Positions 27,901 to 60,019 of a DNA stretch of 64,000 bases are shown here, piece by piece. The notes below the pieces were generated by a model. It did not search any database, was not told the origin of the DNA, and saw only the letters and a list, made by a program, of their open reading frames with translations. The stretch is from Symbiodinium sp. CCMP2592 (Eukaryota > Sar > Dinophyceae > Suessiales > Symbiodiniaceae), in contig CAJNDT010005791.1 of assembly GCA_905221615.1 (NCBI GenBank), positions 72,736-136,735 on the forward strand, in the 5' to 3' direction. Each line of letters begins with the position of its first letter. Position 1 is the first letter of the stretch. A program made the position numbers and the translations under genes.

Positions 27901-30463
27901 GGTTGACAGACTCGGGAGTTGAGGGAAGCGGGCGATGGGGGTTGAAAGAATCGGCACGATCTGAGTTGAGGGAAGCGGGGAACATGGTTGAAGGAAGTGC
28001 GGTTGACGGAATCTTGGTTGACGGAACCGCGCGAAGTTGAGGAATAAGGCTTGTACCTCATTGCCATCATCATCATCATCAACAACAACAATAACATCAC
28101 GATCATCATCATCATCATCATCATCATCGTCACCATCGTCCTCATCATCGACATCATCATCATCATCTTCTTCTTCTTCTTCACCATCATCGTCACCATC
28201 GTCCTCATCATCGACATCATCATCATCATCATCATCAGCGGCATCATCATCATCATCATCATCATCGCGAGGACTCCACCCCGCTGTGTTCCACGCAGAA
28301 GGATGCGCACTGCACCCCTCCCGAGAGGGCGCGCGACTGCCCCCTCATGGTGTTTCACACGAAAAGGATGCGCACTCGACCGTAAAGTGGATGCACACTG
28401 GACCGTTAAGTAGATGTGCACTCGACCCCGCCCCCCTGCAGGGCTTCAGCTTCATCCATCACGCCGCCCGAGGCTGTGGCCGCTGTTGCTCTTGGCATCC
28501 TGTAGTACAGCGATGCGGCTCGATTGCAGTCTTGTGTGCGAGGCCGCTGAAGGATGGCACATGCCCCGACAGTTGCGGCAACTGGGAAACGTTGCAATAA
28601 AGCGGCGCAAACCTAAGGAAGCTAGCAGCAGCTCCTTACGTTACGAGAGGAGCAACAGACTGCAACAGGTTTCAACCTAGGCTGTCGCCAGCTCGTGTCT
28701 GCAACGTGCTACCATCTTCCTTGTCAGTCCATACCAAGGCTGCAAAGTTCACTGTGAGAGTTCATCTACGTCTGCAGGCTTGCCTCAGACCTGGGTATGA
28801 CTGAGTCGCGCAACTCCGGAAGCTATGGGCAATTACAGTGTTGCCTACCAGTCTAACACGACAACTCAAAACACGCCCACATCCGCCCTCCCGCCTTCTC
28901 CGCGCCCTTCGCCAGCAGCTCTCTGACAATATCTGTGGAACCACTAGTGGCGGCGCCATAAAGGGGAGTCCGGCCTCAAACTTGCACAGCTCAAAGGGCT
29001 TCAACTTCATCCATCAAGCGAAGGTTGGCGCTATTGTGATTAAGGTCGTGCATACTGCTACTGTGCTCAGTCCTGTGGTGCTCTGCATGTGGTGTTGCCA
29101 TCGTTGCTATTCACCGCCGACATTCCACACCCTACACCCCGCAAACGATGAGTCCGACCGCCTCAACCCGTAAAAGCCACCTGAAACAGCCTGACTGCCG
29201 ACCTCTCCAGACCCTATGAGTTTCTGCTTTGTTCGACTGCTGCGGGTTGGTGTTGGTGAGCGTGCGGAGCTGTGCCTGCGTTTATGGTGGTTTGAGAAAG
29301 GCTACAGTAGTGAACGAAAACTACACACATGCCCACACTGATGATGCTACCGACTCCTTCTCTTCTCTATAGATTGGCGCAGAACCTCTGTTTTTCCGTT
29401 ACCAAAATCATATATGATACCTGATCGACTTGAGAATGTAAGTAAGCGGCCCGCATTGAAAAGGTTGCTGGCACCGACTGCTCAGTGCCGCAGCATAGGT
29501 GCTGATACTTGCACATAGCTCGGACTAGCTACTATGTCGAGAGGTATATGCACAGAGCTGTACGTCTAGAGTTCGAAGGGGAAAATTCCTCAGTTTTTTG
29601 GAGATCTACCCAGGACACCTCACTTATTTTTAGAGGAACAGTTACGTTGGCCCCTCGGGATTGGGCGAGTTCAAGGCCAAGTTCGGAGAGACTTGGGAGC
29701 ACGAGGCCAAACACAAGAAAGCGGATAATCCAAATGCCACTCACGGCGTCAGAGAACCGCGGAGAAAGTGCAGGGATAAGATCTGCGCACCGGGGGGTAT
29801 GGCCTAGGGTTGTGAACGCGTGTTGTTGGTATCTTATGTAAGGTGAAACAAAGTTAAAACAAAGGTGCTAGTATCTGAGAAGAGGTACAGCAAACGAAAA
29901 ATGTTTTTCCGGACACAGTTTTTTACCTTTGTTTTTACAAGCCGCGCTTTAACCTTCCCCGGTTTTTTGTTTACCTTTGTGTCCGTGGCCACGTTTTCTT
30001 TACTTTATCTTGTTAAACTTCTCCTCAGGAAAAGCCAACCTTGTAAGGGGAGGAGGGGCGAGGTGACAAGGTCCTTTGGCGCGGGGAGGCCCCCTGGAGT
30101 GGGACGCGCAGGGCTGCCTAGGGGAGCTTTACCCTGGACAGCCCAGATGTCCGCATAGCCCTGATAACGGCACGGGTGAGTGATCCAACCGATCATCACT
30201 TGCCGTCCTGATCTTGCCGGATGTGCTCTCGTCTTTCCGATTTCTGATAGTCTGATCATGCTAGTTTGTCGTCTCCTGATGCTTCAGATATTCCCAGTTC
30301 GTCGTCGTCTGATCGTTGTCCTCATTTGATACTCATTCGACCAGCTAGTCATCGGACTACCTCGCCAAAACGTACAATGCATAGGCGTGTCTTCCGGCGG
30401 TGTGCAAAACATTCTCTCATCTTCTCACTTATATATATATATATATATATATACATTATAATA

Positions 30464-30494
<31 letters not shown>

Positions 30495-33400
30495 TTATAT
30501 TTATATTTATATTTATATTTATATTTATATATATATATATATATATATTATATAGAAAAAACTCCTTCATGCCAGTGGGTATCCACTGTAATGGTACCCA
30601 CTCCGAAAGGACTTTGCTGCCCCGAATCTTCGCAGCCACCCGAGGCAGTGGCCGTCGTTATCCTTGGCCTCCTGTGCAGGGATGCCACGCGGTTGCAGCG
30701 TCGCTGAAGGACGAGGCTACCCCGGCCCTGAGTGTGGGGCACATGCCCGACCTTCAAACGATTGATCCGGAGGCCTAGACCCAAAGTGTTGCTCCTCAGC
30801 CGTTAAAGTCGTTAAGTAAGACCTTGGGTGTTCTAAGCTCCCTTTCTTCTCCCACGAAAAGAGCGAGGCATGAGGCCGGTGGTGTACGATTGAAATGGAG
30901 GCCTCTTTTTGGCTTGCAAGTGTGGCCTCAGCCCTTGCACGAAAACAACCTGCAGCGGGTTGCTGCAATGGTAGGAATTGGGCTCTCGCAGAAAGCTTGA
31001 ATGATCAGTCACAACAGCAAGCAAAGGGCTCTGCGCCCTGTCTCCTTTTGCACGAGCGCCGGGCTCGATCCGTGGCTCTGGCTACAGCTTTACGAAGCTA
31101 GTCCTCTAAAAGGGGCGCCCCAGCTGTCGAGCCTGAAAGGCCCACATGTTGAAAGCATCGGCATCGTCGACAAAAGCCTCAGAAGTTGCATCACCCCCAA
31201 AAGACATCGACGATGCATAGGGGCTGCCCATGAACTTATCGATGGCCTCGACCGCTGACTTGCCTTGGCGTTTGCCTTTCTTTGCAGCTGTGAAGGTGGG
31301 GTCGAACTTGATTGACCACACTGAAGTCTGCAGAAACTTAGCAAGTCCAATACGGCAGTCTTGTCGTTTCTTTGTCAAAGCATCCGCTAAATCATAGTCG
31401 CTGGGAAGCCAGCGCAACTGGCATCGGCACCGGCTGAGCGTCTCTCGAAGTTGAAACGCTTGCAAAGCTGCTCGCATGTTCGACAGCCCGAGTAGAGGAC
31501 TCTCATTCAGCTCAACAGCATCAAACCCTCCACGAGAGTCTGTACAGAGGACTCCTTGAACTTGAGCAACTTGCTTCTCGAGGATGCTCACAAGGTCTTG
31601 CCGAGGTGGTAGTTGATCGCGAACGCCGCCGGCTCCGTTAAGCTCAGTCCAGATAAGCCTCGCACGGAAGTTATGATCTTCAGCTTCCAAGATGGCTTGC
31701 ACCTCCGAGTCATTGGAGCTGATGGCCTTGCGTCGTAGTTTCCACGTTCGCCATCCAAGAAGTGACATTGTGGAAACTTGTCCAGATAGGCATTCTGGTC
31801 CGGCTAGAAGAGTCAGGAGGCCACCTGTAGAATCACCCTTGGGACGATTAGCATGTGCAGAATCTCCCATGGACACCATCACAAGCTGTGACCAATGAGT
31901 CGCCGTCGGGAGCTTCCGGAAAGTCAGCTTGGTGGGAGCTTGTCGAATTTCTCCAATCAGTGCTTGAATCTCGCGTGCCACTTGCATGGAACCATCAGTC
32001 GACAGCTCCGTTAGCAGTAGATTGCATCTCGCACATAGGAGGGGTTGAGATTGGATAGCAGGCCAGGACAAGACGCCTAGCGCGGTCCTGCAGGCTTCCT
32101 TCTCCTTCGCGTCCATAGCTGTATCCAGGCGTATGCGCTCAGGGGAGATCTCCACGTCCGCAATGGTCTCCGTGTAGTAGGTCTGGTCCACAACGATCAT
32201 CTTGTTGCCATTCGCATCCAGCTGAGTGGACACATCGGTCCCCGCATGGCGGTAGGAACCTTTCTTCGCCATGCCCCATTTGTAAGAAGAGTCGATCTCC
32301 TTCTTGATGTCCAGCCATTCTGGGCTGTTGTCGCCAATTCGGTGAAAGTCGTCAACGTGGCCGCCCATGGCACCGATCACCTTGGGGTGGTCGCCATCCA
32401 TGACGAGCTTGGAAAACCATATCCATAGGCAACGTTCTCCAAGTACAGCTTGGGCACCCAGCTCAGTCAAACGTTTGTTGAGTGACAACCACAAACCACG
32501 AGGAGCTGTAGTTGAGCCGTAGATGTTGCGTAGGATTCTCATGATCCTTTCGTCGCCAATTTGTAAGGCGTCTCGAAGTTCTTGAACACCAGAGGTCCAT
32601 AGCTCTTGATCTGCAGCAGTCGGTTGAGTCTGCAGAAAAGCCGTTGCTAGGTCCAAGCCTTCAAGTTCCCATTGGTTCTGAGCGGCCATGGAGTACAACA
32701 AATGTCGACCCAACGAAGATTGCACAGGGCTCGAGGTCTTAAAGGAGGGGTCCAGCAAGTTCGGATGTTGAAAGCCCAACAGCACGATCCGGGCTTTCGC
32801 TTTCACTGCCCCGTCTCTGCCATGCAGAGTCTTGGGGTTCTCTGCTTGGTCGCGTCTGGCTTCTTCTCGGTCTTCGGGAGGTACAGACTTCCAAGTCAAC
32901 ACCCAACGAGCTTTCACAATGCGATTCGTAGAGTAGGCTTTCTGAACCTCCGCATTGTCCTTGCACTTGCGCACAGCCTCATTCGTGATGAAGCTGTCAA
33001 CCTCTTTCGCCTTGGCTCTCGTGAAAAGTTGACGCTCATGCTCAGGAAGTCGAGCGAGAACCACCTCACTGTCCCGCATCTTTTTGACCATGAATGCAAC
33101 AGGATTGCGCTCGAGGGCCTTGCGCTGGCGATTTGACATCTCACCACCAATGTCAAATTCAATCTTCAGGAACTCCTCGGTCTCGTCCATGGCAGTGAAA
33201 AGGTCCATTCCCTGAGCTTCGGCTCGGGCTTCTGCTTGAAGAGCTTCCACCCAGTTCAACTCTTCAACGCCGTCTCCCTTGTGGCGTTTGAGCTGTGGAG
33301 TTTCATACTCATTGACTTCAACGGGGTGTTTTACTGCCGAAGAGGTTGATGGACTGGCAGGATCATCACCATCTGCTTCAACAGCATCTTCCGCAAAAGT

Positions 33401-36400
33401 CACCGTAGGTCTCGTCTTAGCACGAACTCGCCGGGTTGGAGGTCGATGAACAGTGGTTGAGTCTGGCTCTGGTGGTAGATCAGGTAACTCAACCTCGTCC
33501 TCCGTTGGCTCGTGGTCAACCAGGTCGTGGTACTCCTTGCGGGGCAAAACATCTTCAAGAGACTTCCATTGAGATGGTTGATCACCATCCACGCTCTCAA
33601 ATTGAAAGCGTTCCGTTTCGGTGACGGGCCGGACGGAGTGTGCCGAACACCTGAACAGCTGCGTGCCGATCAGCACCCAGACTACATGCCGCCTTTGGTC
33701 TCCGTGAGATTGGTGTGGTAAGACTTCGGAGAACACCACTCGCCCAGGTCCTATCCAAGCAGGTCGCCCAGACTTTCGAAAACCACCTCGCGGCCCAGTA
33801 TGTTGGCTTTTTGGCCAAACCTTCCTCCAAATTTTCACCAGATCGAGGGGATTGTAGTTGCGGATGGGCTGCCGGACAGTAGTGTTTCCGAGCTTGGAAA
33901 GAACTCGTTTGGCTCGAGTCTTTTGGGCAACTGATTCAGCATGTTGTCGTGCTGTAACAAGTCGGGCAAACTCCACGTCGGGGTCGAGGTCATGGATGGT
34001 TCTCAAGTCCTCGTCGTTCAAACTGAACTGTTTGCCAAATGCCCATTGGAAAGAAGAGTAGCCCGCCGTATACTCGGTGGAGTTGAGGGCAGACGTGGCC
34101 AGATATAAGGTCACAGTTGGTGCTTGGTGACGGGCCTCGAGATGAATGGCTGAGGCCGTGTGTTTGATGTCCTGCACCACGGCTTCAATCGCGCCGTGTG
34201 CCCAATGTTCTTTCTCAGCCACCAAATGGATCATCAAGTTGATGCTCGAAGCAAAGTCATGCATAGCCTCCGAAGATAAACTCTTAGCCGAATCGAGCAA
34301 CAGGACTTTTGGTTTGGGGAAGCAGGCCAACCAACATTCGCAGAAGGCCGTCACAATGTCCTTGGTGCTCTCGGCCTTCATCTCCAAGAGGTTGTAGGTC
34401 TGAAGAGGCTTTACCACACGTAGTTTGGTGGCCAGGTCGACAAACACAACAAACTTGATCTTTGTTCGGCTTTCAGGAACAACCCATTCACCAACATCAG
34501 CACCAACTGCTTCCCAAGCGGCGTATTGGGGATGAGTAGCCGCCGGGGGTACTTGTCCCGAGCTGGTTCCTCCATGTTTCAAACTCTGGCAGGCGGGACA
34601 CACATGTTTCAAAGCCACATCAACTTTCCACTGCTCGTGTCCTGCTTCTTGAATGATTCGAGCAAGGTTGCGATTCGTAGGATGTCCCGCAGCCTTGTGA
34701 AACTTGGACACCTGCGCTTCCCATTTCTCATAGTCCGTTTTCGTCACACCCGCTGGTAGTGGATCAAGTTCCGGATCGGGAGAAATCTCAGCCGGGAAGG
34801 CAGTAGAAGTAGCCGGCATGGCAATCGGAAATCCAAGTCGCCGTAGACGTCGAAGTTCCTCTGGTTGTAGATGAGGTGTCATCCGGGTGGTGTAGGCAGA
34901 CACTGCGATGCGGTAGCCGCTCCATTTTTCCGATGCGTGCCAAGCGTCGGGATCAAAGCTGACAATTTGACGACGTGTAGGTTGAACAAAGCCATCACGT
35001 AGTCGACCATCCGGCGTCTTGCGGCGCATCATCGGATGTGTGGTGGAATATCCCGCAGTCCACAAGCCACCGTTGGAGAAAGGGCCGACGCACACCAGGT
35101 AGTTGGTGGAATCCTTGACGTTATGAAAGTCCCGGTGGGGCATTGCCGGACAGTTGAACGACACCATCAAACTCGACCAGGTAGATTGTGGTAGCTGTCG
35201 TCTGAGAAAGGCATTCAAGTACTGCACCAAAGGTTCCAGAGCAGCAGTCTTGTTGCTGATGCCACCAAAGCTTCCATGGGAGTAGGCACCAAGCACAAAT
35301 CCTTTACGACGCACAGCCTGCCAACGAGCATGGGGAGTTGTCATATCCTTGACGTTCTCAGAGGCACACATGAGGACGGATTCCAAAGCATCATACGAAA
35401 AGTCACCCTGGATGGTGTATTTGTTGACCAGATCCAACAGCGTACTAGACGATGTCACCCCTGCTGAGACACACTGATCACCTGAAGACGATGTTAATCC
35501 TTCCAGATCCCCTGCTGAGACACACTGATCACCTGAAGACGAGGTTAATCCTTCCAGATCCCCTTCTGTCAAACCGTAGTCCTCCACATACTCCTCGCCA
35601 ATGGGATCGTCCCCAGCAGGTTGTGGATCATCGTCTGCATCAAACCACGGTTGGTCTTGACGTAGAGCAAGAAGACGAAGATGTCGAGCAGGAGCTGCTT
35701 GATCTCTCCAGTGTCGTGCAATGGATTGTACCAACCGCCAGGGGTAGTAGGCGGACACCGCGGTTTCGCCGCCCTCAATGTGACCATGGACACCATGATT
35801 GCCAGGGCATACTTTAGCTCTGAACACGCGGTGAAATTGCTCATCCGTGGTCTTGATCATCCATTTCTTCTGAATGAATTGAACACCTGCACGATCTTTC
35901 ATGCCGTAGTTGCAGCCATCAACACGACACGAAAGCCACGGAATCTCCATCGATTGAAGGTGCTTGTCCAGGTCCTCCATTGGCATTTGACGCCACCCGA
36001 AACAAGGATGGGGCCACTCAAAGTACACCTGAACCGAAGGGTCATCACTCAGAGCCTCCTTGATGAAAGCATTGGAATGCCACAGCAGCCTCCGTTCACG
36101 GCGACGCGCCGTCTCCAGATTGGTCTTCTTCTCGGGAGTGTTGTAGTTCACGGAGGTCCACGCACACCACTTTGTGCACGGCAAGGAAAACCAAAGACGC
36201 CGAGGTTGGTGGAGACGACGTAGTTCACGTAGGCGATCCCAAGTGGAGGGCTGGTACAGGTCAAAGCCATTGGCCAAATTGATGCGACGAGCCTTGATGC
36301 CGTGCTCTTCAGAAGCCTCGGATAGCCAGCTGTGAGGAGCACAGGCAATCTCCCACACACCGTCACGCTCATGTTGATGAAGATTCAACAACAGGGTCGT

Positions 36401-39400
36401 TGTCATCGCATTGAACAGTGTCGCCATAGCCATGATCTTCTTGCCAATGTACAAAGGCACATGTGGCGTGTACACCTTGCCCTTCTGACCAGGTTTCACT
36501 CGCCCGTCTTCTCGTTCTCGTAGGCCGCCACCAACTCCTCGTCGTCCACCATGCCCCACGCCGTGCTCGGTGACGAGGGTGCTGTCCTGGTAGAGGTCGG
36601 GTTGTCGATCAACTCCCGAATCGCTTTCTCCAGAACCGTCTCCGCCGTGATCTTGTTCATCATGTGCAAGCAGACCTTCGCGGTTGGCTTGACATTGCCC
36701 AGGTGCTGGCGAAGTTCCTTCAGCATCTGAGACACCATTGGCGCGTTGAGCACCGCCGTCGAGGAAGCCGGTGATCCCTTCCTCGGTGTGTAAAGGAGTC
36801 TCACGTTGCAGACGCTGCACGTGATCCACTGGCCGTGTGCATTCGCTTCCGGAGCCGCGGGTACATGTCGGTTGTAGCATGGCCATTGTTCCGGTGACAT
36901 TCGTGGATCCCGAGGGTCTGCCTTCATGCGACGGGTGGTGTCGAAAGAGCGGGCCCGAGCTTTGGGCTTCGCCTTTGCCGCTTTGGCCTTGTAGGACTGG
37001 ATCAAGAGCTGCTCGGTCTCCGGGTCGAGGTCGCGGGTCTCCTGAGAGGAAGCCGCCATTGCTGCGCGAAGAAGTTGTTGTCGAAGAATCTATGGCACCG
37101 AAGGCGCCAGACATTTGAGCTTGAGAAGCTGAGGTGGTGGACGTCGTTCGAGAGGCTTCGAAAAGCTGCCACATCCTAGCACGTGCCAACTGCAGCTCTT
37201 GCTCATCAAACTCAGCATCGCGAACAGTCATGTCCAGCCAAAGTGTCCCTAGCTCAAGCACTTGATGATCGTGTACAGGACAGCTACTGGCAGGGGATAG
37301 AGCACGAACAACAACATGAGCCTGACCTTCATGGTTGGTGTAGCCCTTGGTGAGGTGTTCAACGATGTCCAGGACAAGATGACCTTTGTGATTGGTGTGA
37401 AGCTGGTACACCTCGGGTTTGGGGTCCTTGGTGTTCATTGCGAGGCCTGTAGCGAAATCTATCATCATGCCAACTCCTTGAGGTCCCAGGTAGTCCATGC
37501 CGATAAGGACTGGTACAAGCGACGTCTTATCCAGGCTGTTGTTGTAGTAGGCTTCGGGGTTGGGGAGTGCATACAACGAGAAATGTTGATGTTGCCCAGA
37601 AACTTGGCTAGATAAATGCACTCGACACAAAGCCCGGCCCCAACGCCCATTCCCAAACCTGAAATACGGTCGCGCGGACTGCTCGAGTTCGATCTTGGCT
37701 CCCTTGTCCTGTGTGAGAACGGCCGAAATCAAGCTGCGAACTATGGCTTCTGGAGCAGCTGAAGCAGTCGCACCGCAATCAAGCATACCTACACTGGGAG
37801 AAGAAGTGCTCACACTCGCCGTGGCCGCCTCCATCACATCGGCAACCTCAAGGCCACCAATGAACATGTCCGAGGCATAAGCATTCACACTGCGATGTCC
37901 TGGGCCATCCTTGCCATGGCCCTTGGACTTGCCCTTGGATTTGCCCTTAAGCCAGGCTTGAGCTTCATGCATCATGCCCTTCTTGCCCTTGAACTTCCCC
38001 TTGCCCTTGCCCTTCGAGAAGTAGTAGGAGTAGAAGTCGTCCATATCCGCAGCAAAGTTCCGGAAGTAGCCCTTGCCACGTCCTTTACCTCCAGGATGCT
38101 GCCGATCGGGGCATTCACGGGCAAAGTGATTGCCTCCGCACAGAAAGCACTTACCGCCACCAAGATTGTTGGCCGGAGATCCAAAGCCGCGGTCTCGACG
38201 AAGAGCTTGCGTGGCTCGCTGGGCTTCAGTCCATGTTCGAGTCGCTTCGGCAGCAAGCGACTCAGCCACACGCTCAGCATTTTGCGCCTCCTGAAGTTTG
38301 GCCATCGCTTCAGGATCTTCGGGCTCAGGCACAGTCGCCTGTTGCCCTTCGTAGTACCATTCATCATCTCGCCAAGAGTCGCGCCATTGATCCACAGCAT
38401 AGTCCGCGTAGGTATCATCCTGCCACCACGCGTCGTCCTCGTACCACCAATCGTCCGACTCCTGCTGGTAGTTAGCGTAGTGCTCGTCCCCGGAGTCCAT
38501 GAAATGGGCGTTGTAGTGGCCAGCAGATCCTCCACGCAGTCCTCCTAGAAGTTGATCATCCCAGAGACTCTGCAACGCTGAGGAAATCACTGAGTGGTCC
38601 AAGGAGTTCTTAGTAGAACTCAGGATATCTCGTTTCTCTTCTGCGCTCAACCCGGCTGCTTGCAACAGCCTCCATCCGCGCAGAACGTCCATGATGAAGG
38701 AATCTGCCACTGACATCTCATCCAAGGGAGTCTTCGCAGCAGGCGGAATCTCGCCCTTGCGGGAGCCTGCCACAGATCCAGCATCAGCCTGTCGGTGGCT
38801 GGGTGACGAACCTGTAGCTCCTCTTGCCGGTGTGGCATCCGTAGGTGCATCTTCACGTCGTTCCGCTGGAGTTCTGGGAGCACTATCATCTGGGGGAGAA
38901 TCGCCGTCAGGAGCAGGAGGTGCAGGGTCCGGCTCCTCGTAGTCCTCGTCGCCCCAGCCGCCACCACCATACCAGGAGTTCCAATCTGGGTCATCACGCC
39001 AGTCAGTCTCCTCTTCGGGAAGACCGAAGTCCCTGTCAGCTTGCGAAACTCCAAGCTTCTCCTCGTGCAAGCGTATGATCGCTTCCACAAACTCCTCATG
39101 CACCAGCGTCTCTCGTACAAGAAAATTCCCAATCGACTCGCCCGGTTGGCGACGGAAGCTGAAGTACTGCTGGCATATGGCAGCTGCGTTAGGAAGCGAT
39201 CGTCGAACAAGAGGGGAGCTCGCCAATCGCTGAAGCAGCAGCTTGGTCCCAGACGGAGTGTCGAACTCCATCTTTGCCCAGCTCATAGCCAGAAGACGAG
39301 CTGGTCCACTCAACCTGGTAAGCAGCCTGCTTGCACAGTAGCGTCTCTTGTGTACAGGCGTGCTCTGCATGAACCAACTCACTTCTCTCGTATACTTCCG

Positions 39401-42400
39401 CCAAGTGCGGGCTTGGCCGTCCCAGGCTGGGACCAACGACTTGTCATGAGCATCGGCCATGATGGCCACCGAAAACTGGATATAGGAAAAACTGTCGCGC
39501 TGACAGGTCGGCAGTGATCAGGTTGAAACCGTAATCGCCAGGAGGTGGATCACTTGCCAGTAAAAGAGAAAAGAGATGCAGCGTGCAGTTCCGACCACAG
39601 GCAGTTCCCTGGAGCGAGCACTGCTCCGCTACCAATGCAGCGGGTTGCTGCAATGGTAGGAATTGGGCTCTCGCAGAAAGCTTGAATGATCAGTCACAAC
39701 AGCAAGCAAAGGGCTCTGCGCCCTGTCTCCTTTTGCACGAGCGCCGGGCTCGATCCGTGGCTCTGGCTACAGCTTTACGAAGCTAGTCCTCTAAAAGGGG
39801 CGCCCCAGCTGTCGAGCCTGAAAGGCCCACATGTTGAAAGCATCGGCATCGTCGACAAAAGCCTCAGAAGTTGCACAACCCTTAAGTGCTGCACCCGAAA
39901 AGTATGAACTTAGAATGAAAATAGCTATGGCACAAGGATTCTATAGAATTCCAAACTAGAAACGAAGCTCAGACCTCTCAGACAGTCTTCAGAAAGGCCT
40001 CAAGAATATCCCCCGCTCTTGCCTCCTGAGGCTTTCAAGTTGCAGTTTCTTGGTTCAGGCCTTTCGCTAAATAAAGTACAGTCTTGACTACCAACAAAAC
40101 ACAAAAACTCAAACCACGCCGGCATCCTCCCTCCGACCTTCTCCGCACCCTGTGCCAGCAGCTCATTGACGATCTCTTTGTGGCCCTGCTCGGCGGCGAC
40201 CATGAGGGGGGTCCGGCCTCATACTCGCACCGCTACAAGAACAGGGTTGAAGCTTCATCCACCAAACGGAGGTTGGTGCTATTGTGGTTGTCCTTGTCGT
40301 TGCTGCTGCTGGGGTTAAAGCTGACGTCGCGCATGCTGCTTAATTATGTGCTCAGTCCTGTGGTGCTCTGCCTGTGACATTGCCACCGTTGTTCTTCGCA
40401 GCCGACACTCCACACCCTACTCTCTCGTGAACCCCCTAACTGCATGCCCGTCTCGCTCACCACAATCACTGTTTGATGGCTTTCCTCAAACCCATCTGTT
40501 TTGCGCTCTGTTGGTTCTTTGAACGGAATCTGACGTTTTATTTTGTCGTAGTTTTTTCGTTGCGACTTCGTCGTAAGTTCAAAGCTCACGGCCTCCGTGG
40601 TGAATACCATACTTCGTGAAACCACCTTTTTGGCTATCTTGAGCCTTGGGCATTTTGCGCTGTTTACGTGCTTTCGGGTGTCGGCGTTTGGCGATTCTTA
40701 CTTCATTGCCGAAGTCGGTGATGCTGTCTGCTTGCTCTTTCGAGGGGGGGGGTTGGGGAGTGGGAATTTTGACTCACTTCTGTTTCACCAAACACCATCT
40801 CGAGTACAGAAGGGTGGGGGGGCTGGGGTGGGGAGGGGGGAGGGTAATTACGTTCTGCTTCACAAAAACAACATCTGGAGTAGCCTCTAAGTCTCTAAGT
40901 CTGAAGCCTCGAATCCGAAACTGCAAAAAAGCAACTGTGGCACCCGAACAAACGAACTGTTGCTACCCGACACATGTTGCGACCCGCACATGACAGCAGC
41001 AGTAGGTACAGAATCAGCAGGACAACACGCACATAACACGCACCATCGAAATAGCAATCGCCAGAGCAGCAGCAAAACTCAGAGTGTGATCACATACGAA
41101 ACAACTTCAGAATCAAGAGAACACGTGCTAGCAAAAGAAGTGATCAATAAACGCTTTTTTCAGTACATAAAAACACAACACCAAGAAAGGAACTGTGCAA
41201 AACCACCCCCGCAACTGAACCCGTAGGGATTACCCTGAACCCCCTCAGCCCCAGACCCTCAACCCTTAAAGGCCACTCCTGGTGATTGTAGACAGGCTAC
41301 AGTAGTCAACGAAAACTACACACAGGCCCACACTGATGACAATACTGTGGACATCGATGGGCTCCTTCTCCAATCCTTTCAGTATATACTCCTTCATGCC
41401 AGTGGGTAGCCACTTCAGTTGAACGACTCCGATGGGGGCTTTGGCTTTGACTGCCGTCTCGCTGTGAGGCGAAGGCTGCTGCGCCGAATCGTCAAAGCCA
41501 CCCGAGGCTGTGGCCGTCTTTGTCCTTGGCCTCCTGCGCAGGGATGCTGCTCTGTTGCAGCTTTGCATTGAAAGCTGCTGAAGGACGAGACTACTCAGGC
41601 CCTCAGCACAGACGAAGTGTGTGGCACATGCCCGACCTTGAAATGATTGGTTTGGAGGCCTAGACCTAAAGTCTTTCTCCTCAGCCATTAAGCAAGAACG
41701 TGGGTGTTGATTTCTTCTCCGGCCTAGCATCTCCGCTTCAAGATAAAAGACTCAAACAACATCAGGTGCACATCGACGGGGGGTCGCCCCACGAAAAGAG
41801 CGAGGGCCGAGGCCGGAGGTCTACTCTACGAATCTGGGGGCCGCTCTTTCACACGAAAAAACACCCACACCGCAAGTCCAAATTGAACGGCATGACAAAG
41901 CATACGACCCCGGCCTCAGACCTTCTCAGACGAGGGGTGACTGGGGAGTATCCAACGTGCGCGACAGGATTCCCTTTTGCGGGGTTCCTCCTAGAGACTC
42001 TTGAACGAGGAAGCAGCATCCCACATGCTCCACTTGACAGGTACACCTAACCCGCGGAGGTTGACGTGCAGTATGCGGTACGTAATATCTCAGACTTCAA
42101 CATATCCACTCCATGAGGCAACCGGGGAAACTTCGCCTTAAAGCGGTCAAACGGAGACCGCTCGCAGAAGCTCCCGACGTTACGAAAACAGCCACTGTCG
42201 TCGGCTGTGGGGCAACAGATCAAGGCTGCATCCCGAAGATTGCAGTGGTGAGAACAGTCTTGACTACAAGTCTAGCATTGGAGAACCCAACCATGCCGAC
42301 ATCCGCCCTCCCGCCTTCTCTGCGCCCTGTGCCAGCAGCTCGTTGACGATCTCCGTCTGGCACTTCTCGGCAGCGACCATCAGGGGGGTCCGGCCTCAGA

Positions 42401-45400
42401 CTCGCACCGCTACAGGCGCTAGACTTATGTCGCGGCAGCGTTCTACAAGTCCCGGCACTGCATGGCCACACTGCATAAAGTGAAGTCGCGGCAGGGGCCC
42501 AGAAGCTGTTTGTCTAGGGAATCCCCAAGGCCACGCAGTGTTGCAAGCCTGCTCAGGCGAAGCCTCAGAACAGCTGAAATCAGGCCCACGTGCTGGCAAA
42601 CTGCAAACTTTTCCAACATCATAACATGCGAAAAACATGGGAATCCCCGTTGACACGCGCCCTTCAGAAGCAGGAGCACGGAGGGTTTCAAGAGTGGTTT
42701 TCAACATTCAGGGCTTGAGGCTTCAGGGCTAAAGGTGTACGGTTAAGAATTTGAGGTTTGGGAAATCGCAATGTGACTAGTGGCGCGTTCTCCTGCTTCC
42801 CTCACTTCTTCCCTCCAAGCCTTTACCACCTCTACTAGCCCAAACGCTTTAATCTGAAGGGGGACTACAGAGAGTTGGTGGTGCCAGTCAGTGGGGGTGT
42901 GGCTTACGTGGCAAGCGCACACCAGGCCGGGCCCCGATTGCTGAACCCTGGACGCTGAAAGATGTGTATTTCCTCAACAAAATGTGAGTTAAACCCTCCC
43001 CTCGTAAATAGTAGCAGTACGCAACGACTTCCACAAGATGCTACTGCTTCAGTAGTCAACCACAAGAACAGGGTTGAAGCTTCATCCACCAAACAAAGGT
43101 TGGTGCCATTGTGGTTGTCCTTGTTGTTGCTGCTGCTGGGGTTAAAGCTGGGTCGCGCATGCTGCTTATGTGCTCAGTCCTGTGGTGCTCTGCATGTGAC
43201 ATTGCCACCGTTGATACTCGCAGTCGACACTCCAAACCCTACTCTCCCATGAACGCCCTAACGGGTTCAGTTGTTGGGGTGGGTTTTGCTCTTGTTTGCA
43301 TGCCTTTGTCTGCCCGGCTCGCTCACCACAGCCACTCCTTCGGGAACGCTCTGCTCACAATGCAAATATCCGGAGTACACAATCAAAACCTTCAAGCTTG
43401 CGCAGCCTCCAAGTCCGAAGCCTCGCACCGAAACTGCAAAACAAGCAACTGCGGTACCCGATCAAACCAACTGCTGCGACCCGACACATGTTGCGACCTG
43501 ACACACAGAAGCAGCGGTGCATACAGCTTGCTCCCAACTCCTGAAATGCTTGCTGTGGTACCTGAACGAACGAACTGCTGCGACCCGGGCGAGGGTTCCT
43601 GGTCTGCACCGGCTATATCCCTTCCTACCCCGTCGTAGACTACTCGAGAGTTTGCAAAACATCAACCACGGACGTAACACGCACCATCGTGATAGCACTC
43701 GACGACGCAGTACCCAGACTAAGCGCAGCACATGACAGCAGCCGAAGGTACAGAATCGGCAGAACACCACGCATAACACACACCATTGCAATAACAATCG
43801 CAAGAGCAACAGAAAAAATCAGGTCCGCGCACCACTGAGTGTGATCACCACATACGAAACAACATCAGAATCAACAGAACACGTGCTAGCAAGAAAAACC
43901 TTAGAAATAAACGAATTTTCCCAGTACAAAAAACACGACAACAAGAAAAGAACTGTGCAAAACCACAGTAGTCAACGAAAACTACACACAGGCCCACACT
44001 GATGACAATACTGTGGACATCGATGGGCTCCTTCTCCAATCCTTTCAGTATATACTCCTTCATGCCAGTGGGTAGCCACTTCAGTTGAACGACTCCGATG
44101 GGGGCTTTGGCTTTGACTGCCGTCTCGCTGTGAGGCGAAGGCTGCTGCGCCGAATCGTCAAAGCCACCCGAGGCTGTGGCCGTCTTTGTCCTTGGCCTCC
44201 TGCGCAGGGATGCTGCTCTGTTGCAGCTTTGCATTGAAAGCTGCTGAAGGACGAGACATGACGAGAGCACCCCGGCCATGAGCACGAACGAATTGTGCAC
44301 ATGCCCGACCTTCAACCGATTTTCTCCTCACACACAAGCCGCTTTCTTTCCGGCTCAGTGTCTCTCCTCCAAGCGCAAGGCGCAAACCCTTTACAACACC
44401 GGCTGGCGGCCCCCCAGCGCATCGACGAGGGATCACCCCACGAAAAAGAGCGTGGCTCAGGCCGGAGGTCTATGATTGATCGGGAGTAAGGCCTGGTAAG
44501 CTCGAAAAGCCAACCCTCGGCCGTCACGAAACACCCAAAGAGCCTCGAGTCTTCAGCTTCTCTGTGCCTTGTCTACACCCCGTCAAATCAAACCCCCCGC
44601 AACCCAGCCTCAGCCCCCTAACGGTCCATGCAATCCCATCCTCAAACCTCTCCTGCGGAGGGGCATCACAAGACCGTGCAATCCCCAGCCTCAGAACTTG
44701 CAATTAAAAAGGCCTCAGGAAACACAGGTTCGCCTCCACAGGATTCAAGTTACACTTTCTTCGTTCAGGCATACAAATCATCCACCGTCGTCTTGCCTGG
44801 CTGCCTGGACCCTCAGCGGAAAATGGAAAGAGAATCTTATCTGCATGAGGCTATGACTCTACATGTCTGACAGGCTTCTGCTTTCCCACCTTGTTCGCAC
44901 CTGCGGCCAGGAGCTCAATGAGGAGTTCTGCATCGCCATCCTCAGCAGCTTGGAGCAGATGCCCATCACCTTAGCATATGTAGACCAGATCGACGACACT
45001 TTAGGATTTGCGCTCGAGCCTTGAGGCGCCGGGGCCCTTGCCCTCCCGATTGATCGTAACCTGTCACACATGCGCCAATGGCGAGAGCTGCTGCAGAGTT
45101 GGCAGATGCCCACCTTGCTGTGCAAGAGCTTCACGCACTTGTTGTGACCATTGCCGGCGGCCTGCATGACAGCCGCGTAGCCTCAGAATCAAGAATTGAC
45201 ACACGGTGGTACCAGCTGCTTGGGAACACAGTGTGAGTGAATGGGAACACCATGTTGGCAGGACCGTGGCGCTTATGAGCATGCCTTTGACAGCCACGGA
45301 GACGATCTGAGAAGGGGAACAAACCACATGCCTTGCACGCTCGTAGACCACAGAGGAACTGCTACCGCTATCATTCGGGATATCTGGCGGGCACATTTAT

Positions 45401-47851
45401 CATGGCACAGATGCGTTACAGTGCAACACGGAACCAGCATCATGACATGGCTATTCAATTCACTCAACCACCACGGCCCTGACCGTGCTCATTCTTTGCC
45501 TCCTGGCGACGTCAGAGACACGACCGCACTTGGTCGTTCCGTTGAGCGAACATGTGATGTACGATGTCCGACCATCAGCTCACATCATTAGACATGAAGG
45601 CAGGCTCTGACGCGTTCAGTGCCCTGGCTTCTGGCCTTCTCAGCGCCAGCATCCAACAGTGTGGCTAGCGAGTCAGCCTGGCCATGTCGCGCAGCGAGCA
45701 TCAGGGCGGTGTTTCCTCAGTGCAGCACCCTGAGCCTACACCCGTGAGCGCACAAGCACCTTATTACCAAGGCGTTGGCCGAATCTGTCGCGGGCATCCT
45801 GGCTGGACGGAACACGTGGCGCGTCGGGTTCGCTTTGCACGTCGTTGCGCTCAGAAGCAATGCGTCGCGCTCATCAGCCGAGTCAGCCCTCGTAGATTCA
45901 GTTGAGCTTCGCTTTCAGAAAGATGGCTTCGTGATGCTTCATGCATACTTGCGACTCTCGTGTGAACCCCAAACGGCTAACACCAGATGCTTTTCGCAGA
46001 CTCTTCTGCCTGCCATTTGGATTGCCTTGCTGGAAAGGTTAGGTGGCCTTCAGTAGCCTTGGGCAAGCAATTAGACTTCTTTCTTGAAAGCCCTACGAGG
46101 CTGAATCTGGCTTTCAGGCCAACTCAAAGTTGCTGGCGACCACAACGTAACACATCATGAGCAGACCGAAAAATGCCTCTTGCATATACGTGCCTCTTTG
46201 ATATTCCACAAAGTCAGTTCGACAAGATCTACCTTGGCCATGGCCAAAGCGGTCAGAGGTTCCCACAGAACCTCTGCCTTCCTTCCTGTGGATCCCCTTC
46301 CCAGCAACCGCGTTAACCGATCCCAATGGTGCACTGTCATGTCCTCCACTGGATTTCGAGGCTCAGAACACAAAAAGGCCTTCCTGGCACACTACTCGAG
46401 ACCGACCTGCCGCGACCAAACAAACCCGTGAGTGGCTCAATAGGGGCCAAAGCGGAGGGCGAATCTCTGGTGCAGGATTTGCAACGCAAATGAGAGCAGA
46501 AGTTGGCAAAGCATGCCGCGCGCGGACAATGGCCTGACGATCACCCAACGGCAGCAGTACGAGAAGGACATGCAGAAGGCCTACACGACGCAGCAGAAGC
46601 GACATCTCCAGGCTCTAGCACAGTACGGCAAGGACATCATGGCCCAGGAACTTAAAGCGGAGGCCAGACTCCATGTCGGGATGAGGGCGGCAGGTTCCAG
46701 CCAGGAGGAGGAGGAGGAGGAGGAGGAGTTGCCTCCGAAGTCGCAGCCGGAGGATGATGGCTGGGTGGAGCTCACGCGATGTTGGAAGGTGGAAGATCAC
46801 GGGGATCTCAACGCTTTGCTTCACCGCATTCACGTGCCGTCATGTCCTCCGCTGGATGTCGCGTTTGCATATTTGCTGGCTTCTGCCGCCTGCACGACCC
46901 TCCTAACCCATGTAACTAGTTTCTTTCCAGTCGTACTCGACCGGGCCGAGGCGGACGACGCAAAGCGTTTAGCAAAATGCTTGCTGACAGCACGAGCAAG
47001 CGTCTTCAAGGAGCTATGCAGTAATCACGAAATACCCCTGCCACAGCAGACAGTATGCGAAGAGCTTCAAGGCTGCGAGTATGCTGACGTCAGCAGCAAC
47101 GATGTTGCATCTGCTTCCCAGCGCTTGCCTTCTTGGCGCCCGCGGCCAGCAGCTCTTGGAGCAACTCGAGCTCGCCGCCTGCTGCTGCTCTGAGCAGCGC
47201 CTTGTCACCTTGGCGGTTTCCGCTTGCCACTACGTGCAGAACACGAATCGCCTGGCAGTTGCGAAAGTGCAGTTGCTCAAGGCAGGTCCAAGCCCAGCAC
47301 CCTCCTCATTCTCTTCTTCCTGACAAGAACATCCGGATACCGTGCTGTTCTGCTTTCGACTCTAGGCCTGGAAGCAGCAAAACAATGGACTCGAGTCGGC
47401 TCGCCTGGTTGGCTCCCTCCCTCGTCAAGCGCTTCGCGCACTCGGTATGGCCGTTCGCTGCTGCCTGCATGTAGGCAGTGAAGCCTCGCCAGGGACGAAT
47501 CCAGGTTCCAACTCGGTTGGATACCAGTCGCTACATCTTCAGCAGCAGCTCCATTCCGAAACATCGAGGCCCCCAGCCATTCTGGTTCTTCGTGTCCTGC
47601 CCGAACTGGACGTGTTTAGGTAAACAGGAAAGCGCGAGGCGTGATTGTCGTGCACAGTACTACAGTGCCAGCAGCAGGTCGGAGATGAAACAAACATTTA
47701 CACACCATTCGCCCAGGCAATGCTGCATCAATCCAGGCACACAAACACAACAGACCGAAAGCAAAGACACAAATGAATGCACAAATGCACATAGTCTCTG
47801 TCTCTTTGAATTGCTTTGCTTTGCTTGGGGCTTGGGGCCGGAGCGCTCGCT

Positions 47852-47889
<38 letters not shown>

Positions 47890-50800
47890 ACCTTGTCTGC
47901 CTCGGCAACCAAAAGGACTGCCAAACAGTCTGTTTGACCATTCCGTGCCGCATGCATCAGGGCGGTGTTGCCTTGCTCGGAGGGGGAAACAGAGCCCGAG
48001 TACCGACGTGTCAATCTCTTGCCGAGGCCATAGCCGAAGCCGTCCATGACATCCTAACCACCAAGCGTCCAACATGCAAGAGCGACCCACGCAAAAGACT
48101 TCATTGCGAGTGTGCGATGGGATTCCGTGGCGAATTTGCAAATCATTGCCTCCTCAAGTCTTGTAGCTCCTTGATTATCAATCTCATCGGACTCAGGATG
48201 TCAGCCCTCCGGCTCCCTCACCTCCTCGGCTCCCTTCTCCAAGAGCTCTTTGACGAGCGCGCTGTGGCCGCCCTTTGCCGCCTCCATGAGAGCTGTTGGA
48301 CCTCAGACACAGAAGCCCCACGCAGTTATACACGCAAGCCACGGACTGAAGAGTGCCCGCTACTGGCAAACCTCGCCTAATCTGCGGATGATGCACTTTT
48401 GTTCATAATATGGAAGCACGGCACAACAATGCATGTTCGCCTACTTGTTGGTGGCTGCTGAAGCCAAATAGGACTTGTCACTCCATAAGGCTCCGGCGGC
48501 CCAGAAGTGCCCGGAATTTCACATTGTCGGCGGACAGTTCCAACACCGTCTTACCTCCGGCAAACACGAAGTCCCTCTTGTCTGGCTTTGCTCAACTTTA
48601 GCAAAAGCTGGATCGGGAACGGTGACAGCGCTAGCATAAGTTTCACAGTCAAGGCATGTTGAGGCTCCTGCCGGCACTGCTTTTCAGGCCCTGGGGCGAG
48701 CCATGATCAGATGCGTCACTGGGTGGAGGAACGTGGAGGAAATGCGATGCTCTCGGTTGTCACACCCTCACAAAAGCTGCAGTCTATTTGGCTTACAAGA
48801 TTATAGAATCGGCCACTTGGCGCGCTCGAAGCATGCCGTTGGACCATCTCTCACCATCTTTGCCAGGTCACCCTCTTTGCCATCCTGTCCAGGAGCAGAT
48901 TGAAGCACTCCTCATGGCCACCCTGCATGGCGAGCATCAGTGGGGTATAACCTGGCAGTGCGATGCGCTTTCCGGAAGCATTCCTCTCTTGAGCTCTCTT
49001 ATGCTGCAACAGGCTTTGACAGGCTGCTTGGCAGCTCGGCACCAAGGCCCCGGCCCTCGTTGTTTTGGCAGTCCTGCGCCACGAACTGCGAGGCCGCTCT
49101 GCTCCACGTCACAATCCCTCAGGTTCCGAGCCTTCTCGGCGTTCCTATCCAGGAGCTCTTTGAGAGATGCCGTCTTACCCTCCCTGGCCGCGAGCATCAA
49201 AGCCGTGCTGCCTTGGGCTCGGAGGGGTCCGCTTCCGTGTGAAACACGGAATCAACTCTTGGCTTATGCCAGAGCCGACTGCCTACGCCCACATGATGCA
49301 TGTCAATGTGGGGATACACCCCCTCCCAGATACATAATCATGAGCAGACTCCTTTCTGCGCTGAGATCGCACGACCCTCCCTTATCCGGATATCTGCAAG
49401 GGCCGGGCCATCGGCGCATCTGGCATCCTGGCTGAAGTGGGTTGCAGCGAGATGGTACGGATCCGGAGCCCTTGGGCCATTTGCAAAACCTGCCTTCTCT
49501 ATGCCTTTGTCGAGGAGCTGCTTGATGTGGTCCGCATTACCATGCTTCACCGCCAACATCAGGAACGTCAAGCCTGAGCCATCTCCAACTTGTGAAAAAT
49601 CCTAGTGGTGAACGGGACGTCATGGCCCATGGCCACTGGCCCAATAACGGTCCACCATACACTTCATGTGCGCTTTCAGTTGCAAGCGATTGCCTCCGGT
49701 AGGCTTCCACTTTCATCGCCATGTGACCGCAATGGGTGGCTGCCAACGTCAGGCATGGATGCGAGTCCGAAGCGACAGTGGAGATTTGTGGAGCAGGTCA
49801 GACGGCAAAGCCGGAAACCAGGAAAGGGCCAAGGACGAATGCGGGGTTTTGAAGGGTCACATGCAGGATTCCCCGTAAATACAACCTCCTTTCTTCCGTT
49901 TCCGTGGCTCGAGGAACCACTGCAAAGCGCCCTGTAAGCCGTCATTGGCCCTCTCACAGCTTCAGAATCAAAAAGAAGCAAGCAGGGCTTCGGCGATCCT
50001 CCGTCAGGTACCGGCTTCGCCGACCAACAGAGCTGAGGCCGTGACCAGCATCGTTTTTGAAGTCCTGAGCAAAGAGCGATTTATGCGGCCGTTGCCATGA
50101 GCCAACAGCCTATCGAACCGAACGAAGGCGTCTTCAACCTCTGGGAGCAGGGAGCTTGCCAAGCCTGACTGTCCAAGCCCCGGCCTTGTACTGCTCGTGC
50201 AGGTCGACCAAGAGCTCCAGAGATCCGGGATTCTCCGTTGCCACTTCCAGAGCGATGTCCAAGGCAGTGCTACCGTTCTCCGTCAACCAGATGTCGGCCT
50301 GGTTGTTCTGGATTATGGAACCACAAACAGTAGAACCTTTTCACAGGGCCCCTAAACAAGCACCAATTTCTGAAACTGTTCCCATATGTCTGCCTTGTAG
50401 GTCAGGAGCTGCCTTGCCACGGCAGTGTGGCCCTGAGCCAACGCTCGGTGGAGAGCGTGCTTGCCGTCGTTCGAGGCACTGTTGGGGTTCGCCCAGGTGC
50501 GCAAGTGCTCGACTACCTTCTGAACATTATCGTCGTAGGCCCTCAGCACTGCGACAAGATGAGATAGTCGTACGAAACGGCCCTTGTGACAAGAAGTCCC
50601 CGCTCGAGTCAACGCGGAGAAATTACGCAGCAACTGAGTCGTAGACGCACTGACGAGCTCCGAGCTGTTCTTCAGCCGTTGTTGCACCACCTCGCTGAAC
50701 TCCTCCTTGGCAAGCCGCAACTCCTGTGGCCATGGCTCCAGAAGCCATGAAACTATGGAAGACGACTCCACCGCTGGAGATGTTGGACGATGTAGGTCCT

Positions 50801-57171: not shown

Positions 57172-57484
57172 CTTCCCAACATTCCAAAAGCCCTTGCTTA
57201 AGGCTATACTATACTATACCTTGACTGCAACTAGGGGGTCACTCTTTCATTTCAGGGATATTCCTGAATTAAGGGTTTCGGGAGTCTTTGGTCTCACTGA
57301 TCCAGACAGCATGGCTGGAAGGGCGAATACTCACGACCACAGCATCCAGCGCGACATGGGCGGTTGCCACCCCCCCTCATGCTGTTTCCGAACTTCCGTG
57401 GCTTGTGTTGCCATGACCCCTCGGCTGTCTGCGGACCTTGCAACTCTTTTTCACATGAAGATGCTGCCACCTCCAAAAGCACTT

Positions 57485-57640
57485 GAGCATGACGATGACG
57501 ATGGTAAGGACGACACTGATGACACTAGAGAAGAAGCAGGACAATGTAGTGCGGATGACGATGACGTTCGTGGAGAAGATGATGATCATGACGATGACGA
57601 TGGCGACAACGATGATGATGATGATGGCGGTGATGGTAAG
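57485..57640. repeat. GAT-rich triplet tract
   Basis: Interrupted GATGACGATGAC repeats, the complement of the ATC arrays at 23-28 kb. The Asp-rich plus-strand frame and the Ile/Val-rich minus frame are repeat read-through. Confidence 0.85.
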
Positions 57641-60019
57641 GAGGGTGAGCAAGAGCCGTGGTGCAACCCCTCTCCTTCGGATCGGCCTGCTGGGCTTCTC
57701 GTGACGAAGGTTCGGACGCTGCCGGCTCAACCTGTTGGTTGTCAAAGCAGTGAGAGCGCGAGAGTCACTTGGACGTCTCTCTGCTCAGGGCTTGGGGAGA
57801 AGACTCTAGTATGTCACACTGCTGCTGAGGTGGAAGCTTCCAGGCGGTGTCATCCGACGAGGAAGTCTTTTCTTCGCTATCCGCTTCTTAGCCGCTACCT
57901 ATAAGTCTACAAGACCTGGCAAGCTTCACGCAAAGCCATTTCACCAACAATCAGAACGAATAGCGAACGTCCGAGACGAAGAAACTGCTGTTGCAGTGGA
58001 TGTGAGAACAGCTGTAGATCCGCGACGGAATAACATGACATGCACTCGCGCATGCACGGCTTCCAGCTCACCCGCGGACGACCAGTTCGGACCGAGACTG
58101 GCCCGCGAGTGGAAAGCGAGGCCGAAGGCAAGCACCCGAACTAGTCTCACAAGTCGCACTACACACAGCCTTTCTTCGAGCCTCAAGGTTCTCCGGTGTC
58201 TCCCGGTATTCAATACTGAGTATATGATGTACTCTGGTTGCCGGGCTCGAGAACTCCAGGAGATTGCAGTTGAAGCCAGCTTCTGGAGGCTAAACCAACA
58301 CAACCAAAAGGAAGCACTCACAAAGCTGATGAAGCACCGTGCTCTCCGAGCAAGCAGCAACCCTCCCTCGGCCATGAAACACTGAAAAACTGAGGGGGTC
58401 CTTCAGCCCACATCCGGTCCGAATCCGAAAACCCAGCTGGGCACGTTCCTTCTGGCCACGACTTCCTGGGAAGCAGACCTCCCAACAGCCCAAACACCCC
58501 ACAACAGCCGGGATCTCCACTACGACAAAAAACTCTGCCAGAATCAAAAGGTACGCCCAAAAGACCACCACATGCCAAAGATAGCCCCACAACCCGTCTA
58601 AACCCTAAACCCTTTCGCCCCAAACTCGAGATGGCCTCCTCCGGGGCCTTTCGGGCATCCCTGGATTCCTCGGAAGCGGGAGCCTGAGAGCTGGGAGAGC
58701 TCGGGCTTCCAGGCTTTGGAGTTGAGCTTCGAGCGTGGGTCCTTGTTAAGGGAATTATTTGAAGATATCCTAATGTGGATCTATAGTACAGTTAATGAAT
58801 ATGGTTTCCCTATCATGGTAACTTACATTAAATGTCCTGAACAAGGAGCCAGGAATGTGGGGTCCGGGGGCTTGAGGCTTTGGGTCTAGGATTCCCGTCG
58901 GGACTTTACGAGTTTTCGTCTTGGAAGTTGTGGGATGGAAGGGTCAAGCTAACGAAATCTGTGGTGAAAGTTTACCTATCTGCTGCCAGTGCCCTCGTGT
59001 TCAGGTGTTAGGACTTTGAGGCATGCCCCAACCAGTTTAACAATCTATGGGATCTAGGTACTTTCCGTCGCTAAACTCCTGGCTTGTTGCTGGGTGATTT
59101 CCGGAAGAGCGTGGCCTTGCAAAACATTCCTTCGCGACGAGTCTCGCCTGGCCCTAATGCGACCCTGAGCCTTATACATCCCCTATAAGACCACTGCAAA
59201 ACACAATGCCATAAAAAAAGGGTTTACGCTAAAAGCCCGCTACAAAGACCCTGTACGACCCTGCTAGTATCTAATACAAAGAAACTTACACAACCCTCAT
59301 CACCTTCCCTAGGTTCTGGGTGCTGCGCGCTCTGCTGCGATTTGGGCATGCCATTCCGCATAGTTGATGTTACAAGGAATAATACCTAAATTTAGTTTTT
59401 CGAACCCTACCCTTCAAAAGTTCAAGGTCTCTGGGCTGCGGCAGGATCTTGGCACCGCCTTACTGTTAGTGTTCGATGACGTTAAGAGACTATGAACACG
59501 CTTGGATCCGTGCGGAAACCTTGGTCACGGAGTGCGGGCGAACAAAGAGCCCGTGCCTGCCAGGATGTACCGTGAATGTGCAAGAACTTTGCGGCTCGGG
59601 CCACTACAAAGCTTCTTTTAAGCATTAGCTGTATCAGGGAAGCAGGCAATCCTTGCAGAAAGAAGCAGAACTGAGATGGAACAACTGCTTTGAAACACCG
59701 GCAAGCCACCCTGGCTCGCACTGGAAGTACGCCGTGCCCCTTACACTGCCGTTGTTCTTGCCAACCTGGCTGAGGCGTCGGGCAAGCCGTGACTAACTGG
59801 GCTCGGGGTCCATGACTCACGCTTGCCCTAGCAAGGCCTCCCTGTTGCCACGCATATGTTGTCTTCTGCACTTGTCATCTTCAACGCCGTGGGAGCGATT
59901 GCTGAAGTATCTCATCGTGCCTGGCGGTCAAGCTCCAAGCCGAGCCACTCCTCAGTAGTCATGAACTGAGGTGAGCACACCTGCGTGTTGCTGCATGTTT
60001 CATAGAAACATACGTCTAC

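Follow-up and report, generated by a model that had tools for sequence, protein, structure and literature searches.

A predicted TET/JBP-like oxygenase domain in the Gag-Pol polyprotein of a copia retrotransposon from Symbiodinium

What kind of enzyme lies between the protease and the integrase of a dinoflagellate retrotransposon, and what might it do there? The question is raised by a 64,000-nt stretch of Symbiodinium sp. CCMP2592 (contig CAJNDT010005791.1 of assembly GCA_905221615.1, positions 72,736-136,735; hereafter the window), which contains a copia element of 8925 bp (30951-39875) that is intact, with long terminal repeats (LTRs), a target-site duplication (TSD) and an uninterrupted open reading frame (ORF) for Gag-Pol. 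An original prediction, made from the DNA letters, had placed a TET/JBP-like dioxygenase at 34865-35467 within this polyprotein, a span that proved right to about 40 bases, as profile boundaries place the domain at 34826-35443 on the minus strand (residues 1343-1548). Sequence comparison and structural modelling indicate, with a probability of roughly two in three, that this segment encodes a nucleic-acid oxygenase of a TET/JBP-like branch, dependent on Fe(II) and 2-oxoglutarate (2OG) and equipped for catalysis, which is embedded in Gag-Pol between the protease/methyltransferase (MTase)-like region and the integrase.

The residues named in the original prediction were all recovered exactly in the translated ORF. 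The motif HRDFHN (35120-35137; minus strand, like all features of the element below unless stated) provides the iron ligands His1445 and Asp1447 together with Asn1450 at the base-contact position, and the distal iron ligand His1511 (34937-34939) lies in WHAS, which starts at residue 1510. Arg1520, the 2OG-binding residue (34910-34912; in GYRIAV, from residue 1518), follows at distal His+9, and an aromatic residue, Tyr1526 (34892-34894), stands at Arg+6. The equivalences to TET enzymes rest on published numbering and spacing (PMC11040006), without residue-level superposition, and were traced through the genomic copies. In CcTet, the iron ligands are His326, Asp328 and His376, and the 2OG-binding Arg385 is likewise located at distal His+9 (PMC11040006), a spacing found in 65 of the 70 genomic copies read, with +10 in the other five.

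These copies come from a search of the assembly (1.098 Gb, 5383 contigs), which gave 4650 loose candidates for the oxygenase domain, of which 150 were scored. All 150 matched at E <= 7.4e-21, 146 have no internal stop, and open frames of 2000-3800 residues surround many of them. Of the scored matches, 70 were read: the top 30 of the list, followed by 40 from the next 47, where seven with scores like those of a copy already taken were passed over. Asp and the distal His are present in 70/70 copies and the first His in 69 (Arg in L066), while the 2OG-binding position holds Arg in 66 and Lys in four. Asn at His+5 and the Trp are likewise invariant (70/70), a further Arg at Arg+9 occurs in 69, and the residue at Arg+6 is aromatic in 69 (Tyr 56, Phe 13, Val 1). 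Because the 47 copies with mutual identity below 85% share a mean pairwise identity of 32%, this conservation reflects selection, not recent copying. The Nei-Gojobori ratio of nonsynonymous to synonymous substitution (dN/dS) has a median of 0.077 and a maximum of 0.305 in 18 pairs that are not independent of each other (dS 0.03-1.0; from 2346 pairs compared; over 120 shared codons). The domain is under purifying selection (dN/dS about 0.08), and with it the retention of ligands across copies, which the original prediction had named as a check, holds.

Such constancy bears on two alternatives. A structural relic, a fold that no longer catalyses but is retained because it shapes Gag-Pol or binds nucleic acid, would fit the adjoining MTase-like domain, which decays in this way (motif-IV Cys in 10/20 copies), and a clade around relative P0009 that lacks Arg1520; we regard it as very unlikely in view of the invariant Asp, distal His and Asn, the 32% identity among non-redundant copies and the low dN/dS. 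A chance motif or misassembly has next to no probability: the window sequence taken alone lacks a PDB match and reaches Pfam at an E of only 0.046, but nine homologous protein clusters, the 150 scored matches and the intact LTRs with their TSD indicate a real feature.

The AlphaFold2 model of the domain is a confident double-stranded beta-helix (predicted local distance difference test score, pLDDT, 87.6), and TET2 and NgTet1 rank first among the nearest solved folds; structural alignment with NgTet1 gives 14% identity. When 45 diverse genomic copies were compared with Pfam, 21 matched Tet_JBP (PF12851) at E <= 1 (best 2.4e-5), whereas Asp_Arg_Hydrox matched two (best 6.5e-4) and 2OG-FeII_Oxy_3 one (0.058); AlkB models are absent from the 23 families matched at this threshold, the rest of which are unrelated and hit by one or two copies each. 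Tet_JBP was also found in 4/10 sequences of a protein alignment (A1) at E <= 10 (best 7.8e-4), and an alignment profile had CcTet as its sole, weak match among all PDB sequences (E 1.3 and 0.57). An NCBIfam scan of the 45 copies gave no relevant family.

Several results weigh against this assignment, as do those named beside each alternative. The window copy itself matches Tet_JBP at an E of 0.046 and 13.4 bits, far from the curated cut-off of 34.9 bits; none of 93 genome matches reaches that cut-off (best 29.6 bits), and the window domain has no match among PDB sequences at E <= 10. The comparison of profiles proposed in the original prediction came out in favour of Tet_JBP and not AlkB across the copies, but weakly and below the cut-off for the copy in the window. 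Since no match passes the cut-off, the domain is here named TET/JBP-like, a divergent branch and not a member of PF12851; what it does combine is a predicted beta-helix with TET as nearest fold, the HxD...H triad, the 2OG-binding Arg, Asn at His+5 and the aromatic residue at Arg+6. None of the outcomes that the original prediction had named as refuting was observed; the structural comparison is where it came closest to failing, with AlkB and FTO folds nearly tied with TET (Z within 1.4 of the best).

AlkB domains occur in some plant RNA viruses. An AlkB/FTO-type oxygenase that removes alkyl groups, whether to repair complementary DNA (cDNA) or to take N6-methyladenosine (m6A) or N1-methyladenosine (m1A) out of element RNA, would account for that near-tie. 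It appears unlikely, as the 45 copies matched no AlkB model at E <= 1 compared with 21 matches to Tet_JBP, and the His-Arg spacing of nine, the Asn at His+5 and the aromatic residue at Arg+6 reproduce the CcTet/TET2 pattern. Sequence thus favours TET over AlkB, where the fold separates less.

The TET/JBP-like assignment can be followed into the base-binding pocket. In hTet2, NgTet1 and CMD1, N4 of 5-methylcytosine (5mC) is contacted from the position five residues after the first His (Asn1387, Asp234 and Asp350, respectively), which Gly331 occupies in CcTet; CcTet Phe391 or hTet2 Tyr1902, at Arg+6 in CcTet numbering, provides the ring on which the base stacks, and CcTet Arg393 (Arg+8) or hTet2 His1904 makes the next contact (PMC11040006). 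Asn1450 is the TET2 residue at the contact position, yet asparagine would be able to form hydrogen bonds with thymine as well as with 5mC. Because Arg+8 is Thr or Ser in 54/70 copies, and so not conserved as a contact, base recognition would not be identical to that of CcTet or hTet2. This difference, the fast divergence outside the active site (32% mean identity, 47 copies) and the fact that no DNA-binding loop was identified would suit a 2OG oxygenase of TET descent that has lost its DNA role and turned to protein or RNA, for example to hydroxylate Gag or a host factor. We consider such a shift improbable, given that, besides the iron ligands, the copies retain both the Asn at the base-contact position (70/70) and the aromatic residue at the stacking position (69/70).

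As for the setting of the domain, the original prediction of an in-frame position within a copia polyprotein is borne out. The Gag-Pol ORF (31106-39469) runs for 2787 codons without a stop and ends inside the 3' LTR (30951-31190), which is identical to the 5' LTR (39636-39875) at 240/240 positions; both are 240 bp long and have TG...CA termini. Trimming the right ends of the LTRs by six bases to TG...CA yielded this identity and the TSD, an identical CAACC 5-mer at each outer LTR end (30946-30950 and 39876-39880, no strand). From the identical LTRs and the TSD, the insertion looks recent. In order, the polyprotein contains a Gag zinc knuckle, CFLCGGNHFAREC (38111-38149, residues 441-453), the aspartic protease motif MLDCGAT (37766-37786, residues 562-568), a divergent C5-cytosine-MTase-like domain (35645-36448, residues 1008-1275), the oxygenase domain, an integrase zinc-binding HHCC motif (34589-34699, residues 1591-1627), the reverse transcriptase (RT) domain RVT_2 (32273-32809, residues 2221-2399; Pfam 34.1 bits, cut-off 31.6) and a probable RNase H, judged by the motif TDSRGG (31526-31543, residues 2643-2648). 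The element is assigned to Copia (Ty1) because the integrase precedes the RT, and the TG...CA LTRs, the 5-bp TSD and RVT_2 are likewise those of Copia.

The MTase-like domain lies directly upstream of the oxygenase domain and was delimited with a profile (A2) and a low-confidence model (pLDDT 64). VIA-align placed C5 DNA methyltransferases as the best match to this model, whereas Foldseek ranked beta-carbonic anhydrases first and gave nothing at E <= 0.001, so that the assignment rests on VIA-align and motifs. No relevant Pfam family (including PF00145) or PDB sequence was matched. The motif-IV Cys is present in 10/20 copies, including that in the window, and the combination of a catalytic Pro-Cys with a PF00145 match that marks a C5-cytosine DNA methyltransferase is lacking.

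The TET-like domain is recurrent and not a lone fusion: other copia polyproteins have it, as does a DIRS-like element. Among 5.8 billion proteins, a region search admitting those of 0.55-1.75 times the query length returned nine clusters of 1573-2892 residues, five of which list RVT_2 and three of which are named from Symbiodinium records (GIP, RE2 and an unnamed product); a profile search restricted to short proteins added five relatives of 163-378 residues. The Symbiodinium names support the dinoflagellate setting that the original prediction had presumed. All ten sequences of A1 share the HxDxxN residues, the Trp, the distal His and a later Arg (1529), and nine have Arg1520. In the clade of P0009, P0012, P0013 and P0014, Gln replaces the 2OG-binding Arg1520 and the later Arg is kept. 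The location of the domain differs among copia-type proteins: the window element, P0006 and P0008 have it after Gag/protease and ahead of the integrase, and in P0009 it follows a weak match to an integrase core. Tet_JBP (6e-4) and RVT_2 (65 bits) were matched within one copia ORF in L093, and in L094 Tet_JBP (6.7e-4, profile positions 61-161 of 164) shares an ORF with an RVT_2 match of 25 bits, which is below the cut-off; in L095 and P0008, Tet_JBP had no match at E <= 0.5. A relative of the window domain was not found among IMG/VR viral contigs.

The copia context was checked by RVT_2 for the window element, L093, L094, L095 and the protein clusters, and for other copies this context is presumed. 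As to prevalence among copia elements, the numbers of first-look candidates are 4650 (TET-like) and 5766 (RVT_2), with 150 of each scored. For 10 of 12 elements, all but L093 and P0008, which the RT seed did not match, distances between TET-like domains correlate with those between RTs (r = 0.83, p = 0.0001). This suggests that domain and RT were inherited jointly, although two groups dominate the correlation.

The DIRS-like element (L091:305-8638; L092:4044-8755) was found by a genome search with Tet_JBP. In its Pol ORF of 1283-1285 residues, the TET-like domain is followed by a C5-MTase-like stretch, an RT matched weakly by RVT_1 and an RNase-H-like end recognised by eye. Upstream lies an ORF of 738 residues that matches phage integrase weakly (E 0.42), and a pair of identical direct repeats of 290-297 bp lies behind the Pol ORF. 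The C5-MTase-like stretch carries EVFSGTA, APPC and LENP, which we take to be motifs I, IV and VI of DNA methyltransferases (DNMTs), and has no PF00145 match. The copia profile recognises the oxygenase domain of this ORF at E 1.1e-31 (L091) and 3.8e-33 (L092), and the ORF has no match among PDB sequences at E <= 1. In its sequence features, the element resembles the SymbioDIRS architecture. Many of the genome matches to Tet_JBP have open frames as long as this Pol ORF. In addition, L096, L097 and L098 (minus) are short ORFs of 271-320 residues that have the TET-like domain as their sole domain and may be host genes or small elements; two of them start with a basic MAPKRPRLD resembling a nuclear localisation signal.

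Compared with known systems, the window domain shares the double-stranded beta-helix and the HxD...H triad with TET2, NgTet1, CcTet and CMD1 (PF12851), the Arg at distal His+9 with CcTet, the aromatic residue at Arg+6 with CcTet (Phe391) and TET2 (Tyr1902), and the Asn at His+5 with TET2 (Asn1387; PMC11040006). It differs from these in its score below the Pfam cut-off, in Arg+8 and in being embedded in a retrotransposon polyprotein. TET/JBP genes on fungal DNA transposons, cited as known in the original prediction, are indeed described: Kyakuja and others, as well as some Helitrons, are likewise mobile, multicopy and mostly undisrupted in coding (PMC12730594). Those carriers are DNA transposons or Helitrons, whereas the window domain is fused into an LTR retrotransposon Gag-Pol; this 2025 survey of fungi reports TET on no retrotransposon and proposes high copy number as one reason (PMC12730594). 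SymbioDIRS-Dnmt3 and SymbioLINE-Dnmt are, similarly, dinoflagellate retrotransposons with a DNA-base-modifying enzyme under purifying selection, and the former has its DIRS-type architecture in common with L091, but they carry DNMTs, whereas the window element carries an oxygenase and a divergent MTase-like domain; Copia is reported there without any DNMT domain, and TET, JBP and dioxygenase do not occur in the main text (PMC5890265). Phage cytosine hypermodification modules combine a C5-MTase, a TET and glycosyltransferases (PMC12730594), so that an MTase-like domain stands beside a TET-like one, as here. In contrast to those modules, the catalytic Cys is often missing from the MTase-like domain of the copia protein, and no glycosyltransferase is listed in the Pfam scans made, none of which was aimed at this class. 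Searches of the open-access literature on dinoflagellates, retrotransposons and TET/JBP dioxygenases, which leave most subscription papers outside, gave no report of TET in a retrotransposon, consistent with the earlier remark that an LTR gag-pol fusion is not a standard description.

The predicted action of the TET/JBP-like domain is most likely oxidation of 5-methylpyrimidines in element cDNA or target chromatin. The position in Gag-Pol suggests action on new cDNA or at the target, because it puts the domain where RT and integrase act: made within the polyprotein, the oxygenase would be carried in the virus-like particle with both enzymes, flip a pyrimidine methylated at C5 (5mC or thymine) out of new cDNA or target chromatin and hydroxylate its methyl group. 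In a host with DNA rich in 5mC and 5-hydroxymethyluracil (5hmU), the outcome may be that naive cDNA is made to look like host DNA, or that 5mC-based silencing of new insertions is lifted. For the former, De Mendoza et al. suggested that methylated cDNA may escape recognition as foreign, and we infer that the same logic could extend to oxidised bases; the latter follows the fungal TET literature (PMC12730594). CpG content, taken as a trace of demethylation, gave no signal. In dinoflagellates, 5hmU replaces 12-70% of thymine (PMC6723414), and in Breviolum, multimapping reads are enriched about twofold by 5hmU pull-down (PMC11071213). A bolder, rather doubtful proposal is that dinoflagellate retrotransposons themselves write oxidised bases, the TET-like domains of very many copia elements, linked to C5-MTase-like domains in copia and DIRS-like elements, modifying the elements' own cDNA ahead of integration to let it pass as host DNA, and adding to genomic 5hmU or oxidised 5mC. 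A TET-like domain in retrotransposon Gag-Pol, with at least 150 genomic matches and purifying selection in a 5hmU-rich lineage, opens two questions to direct test: the function of base oxidases carried by mobile elements, and a possible contribution of such elements to the unusual bases of dinoflagellate DNA.

Elsewhere in the window, the flanks on both sides of the copia element (28869-30806 and 40112-42414) are 73-90% alike, and the element may therefore have inserted between diverged duplicated host segments. Two plus-strand stop-to-stop open frames (47475-48380 and 56999-57904), both of 301 residues and 9.5 kb apart, suggest a duplication. Low-complexity tracts, namely a serine/methionine-coding triplet array and an AT microsatellite, are located at 28037-28299 and 30413-30580.
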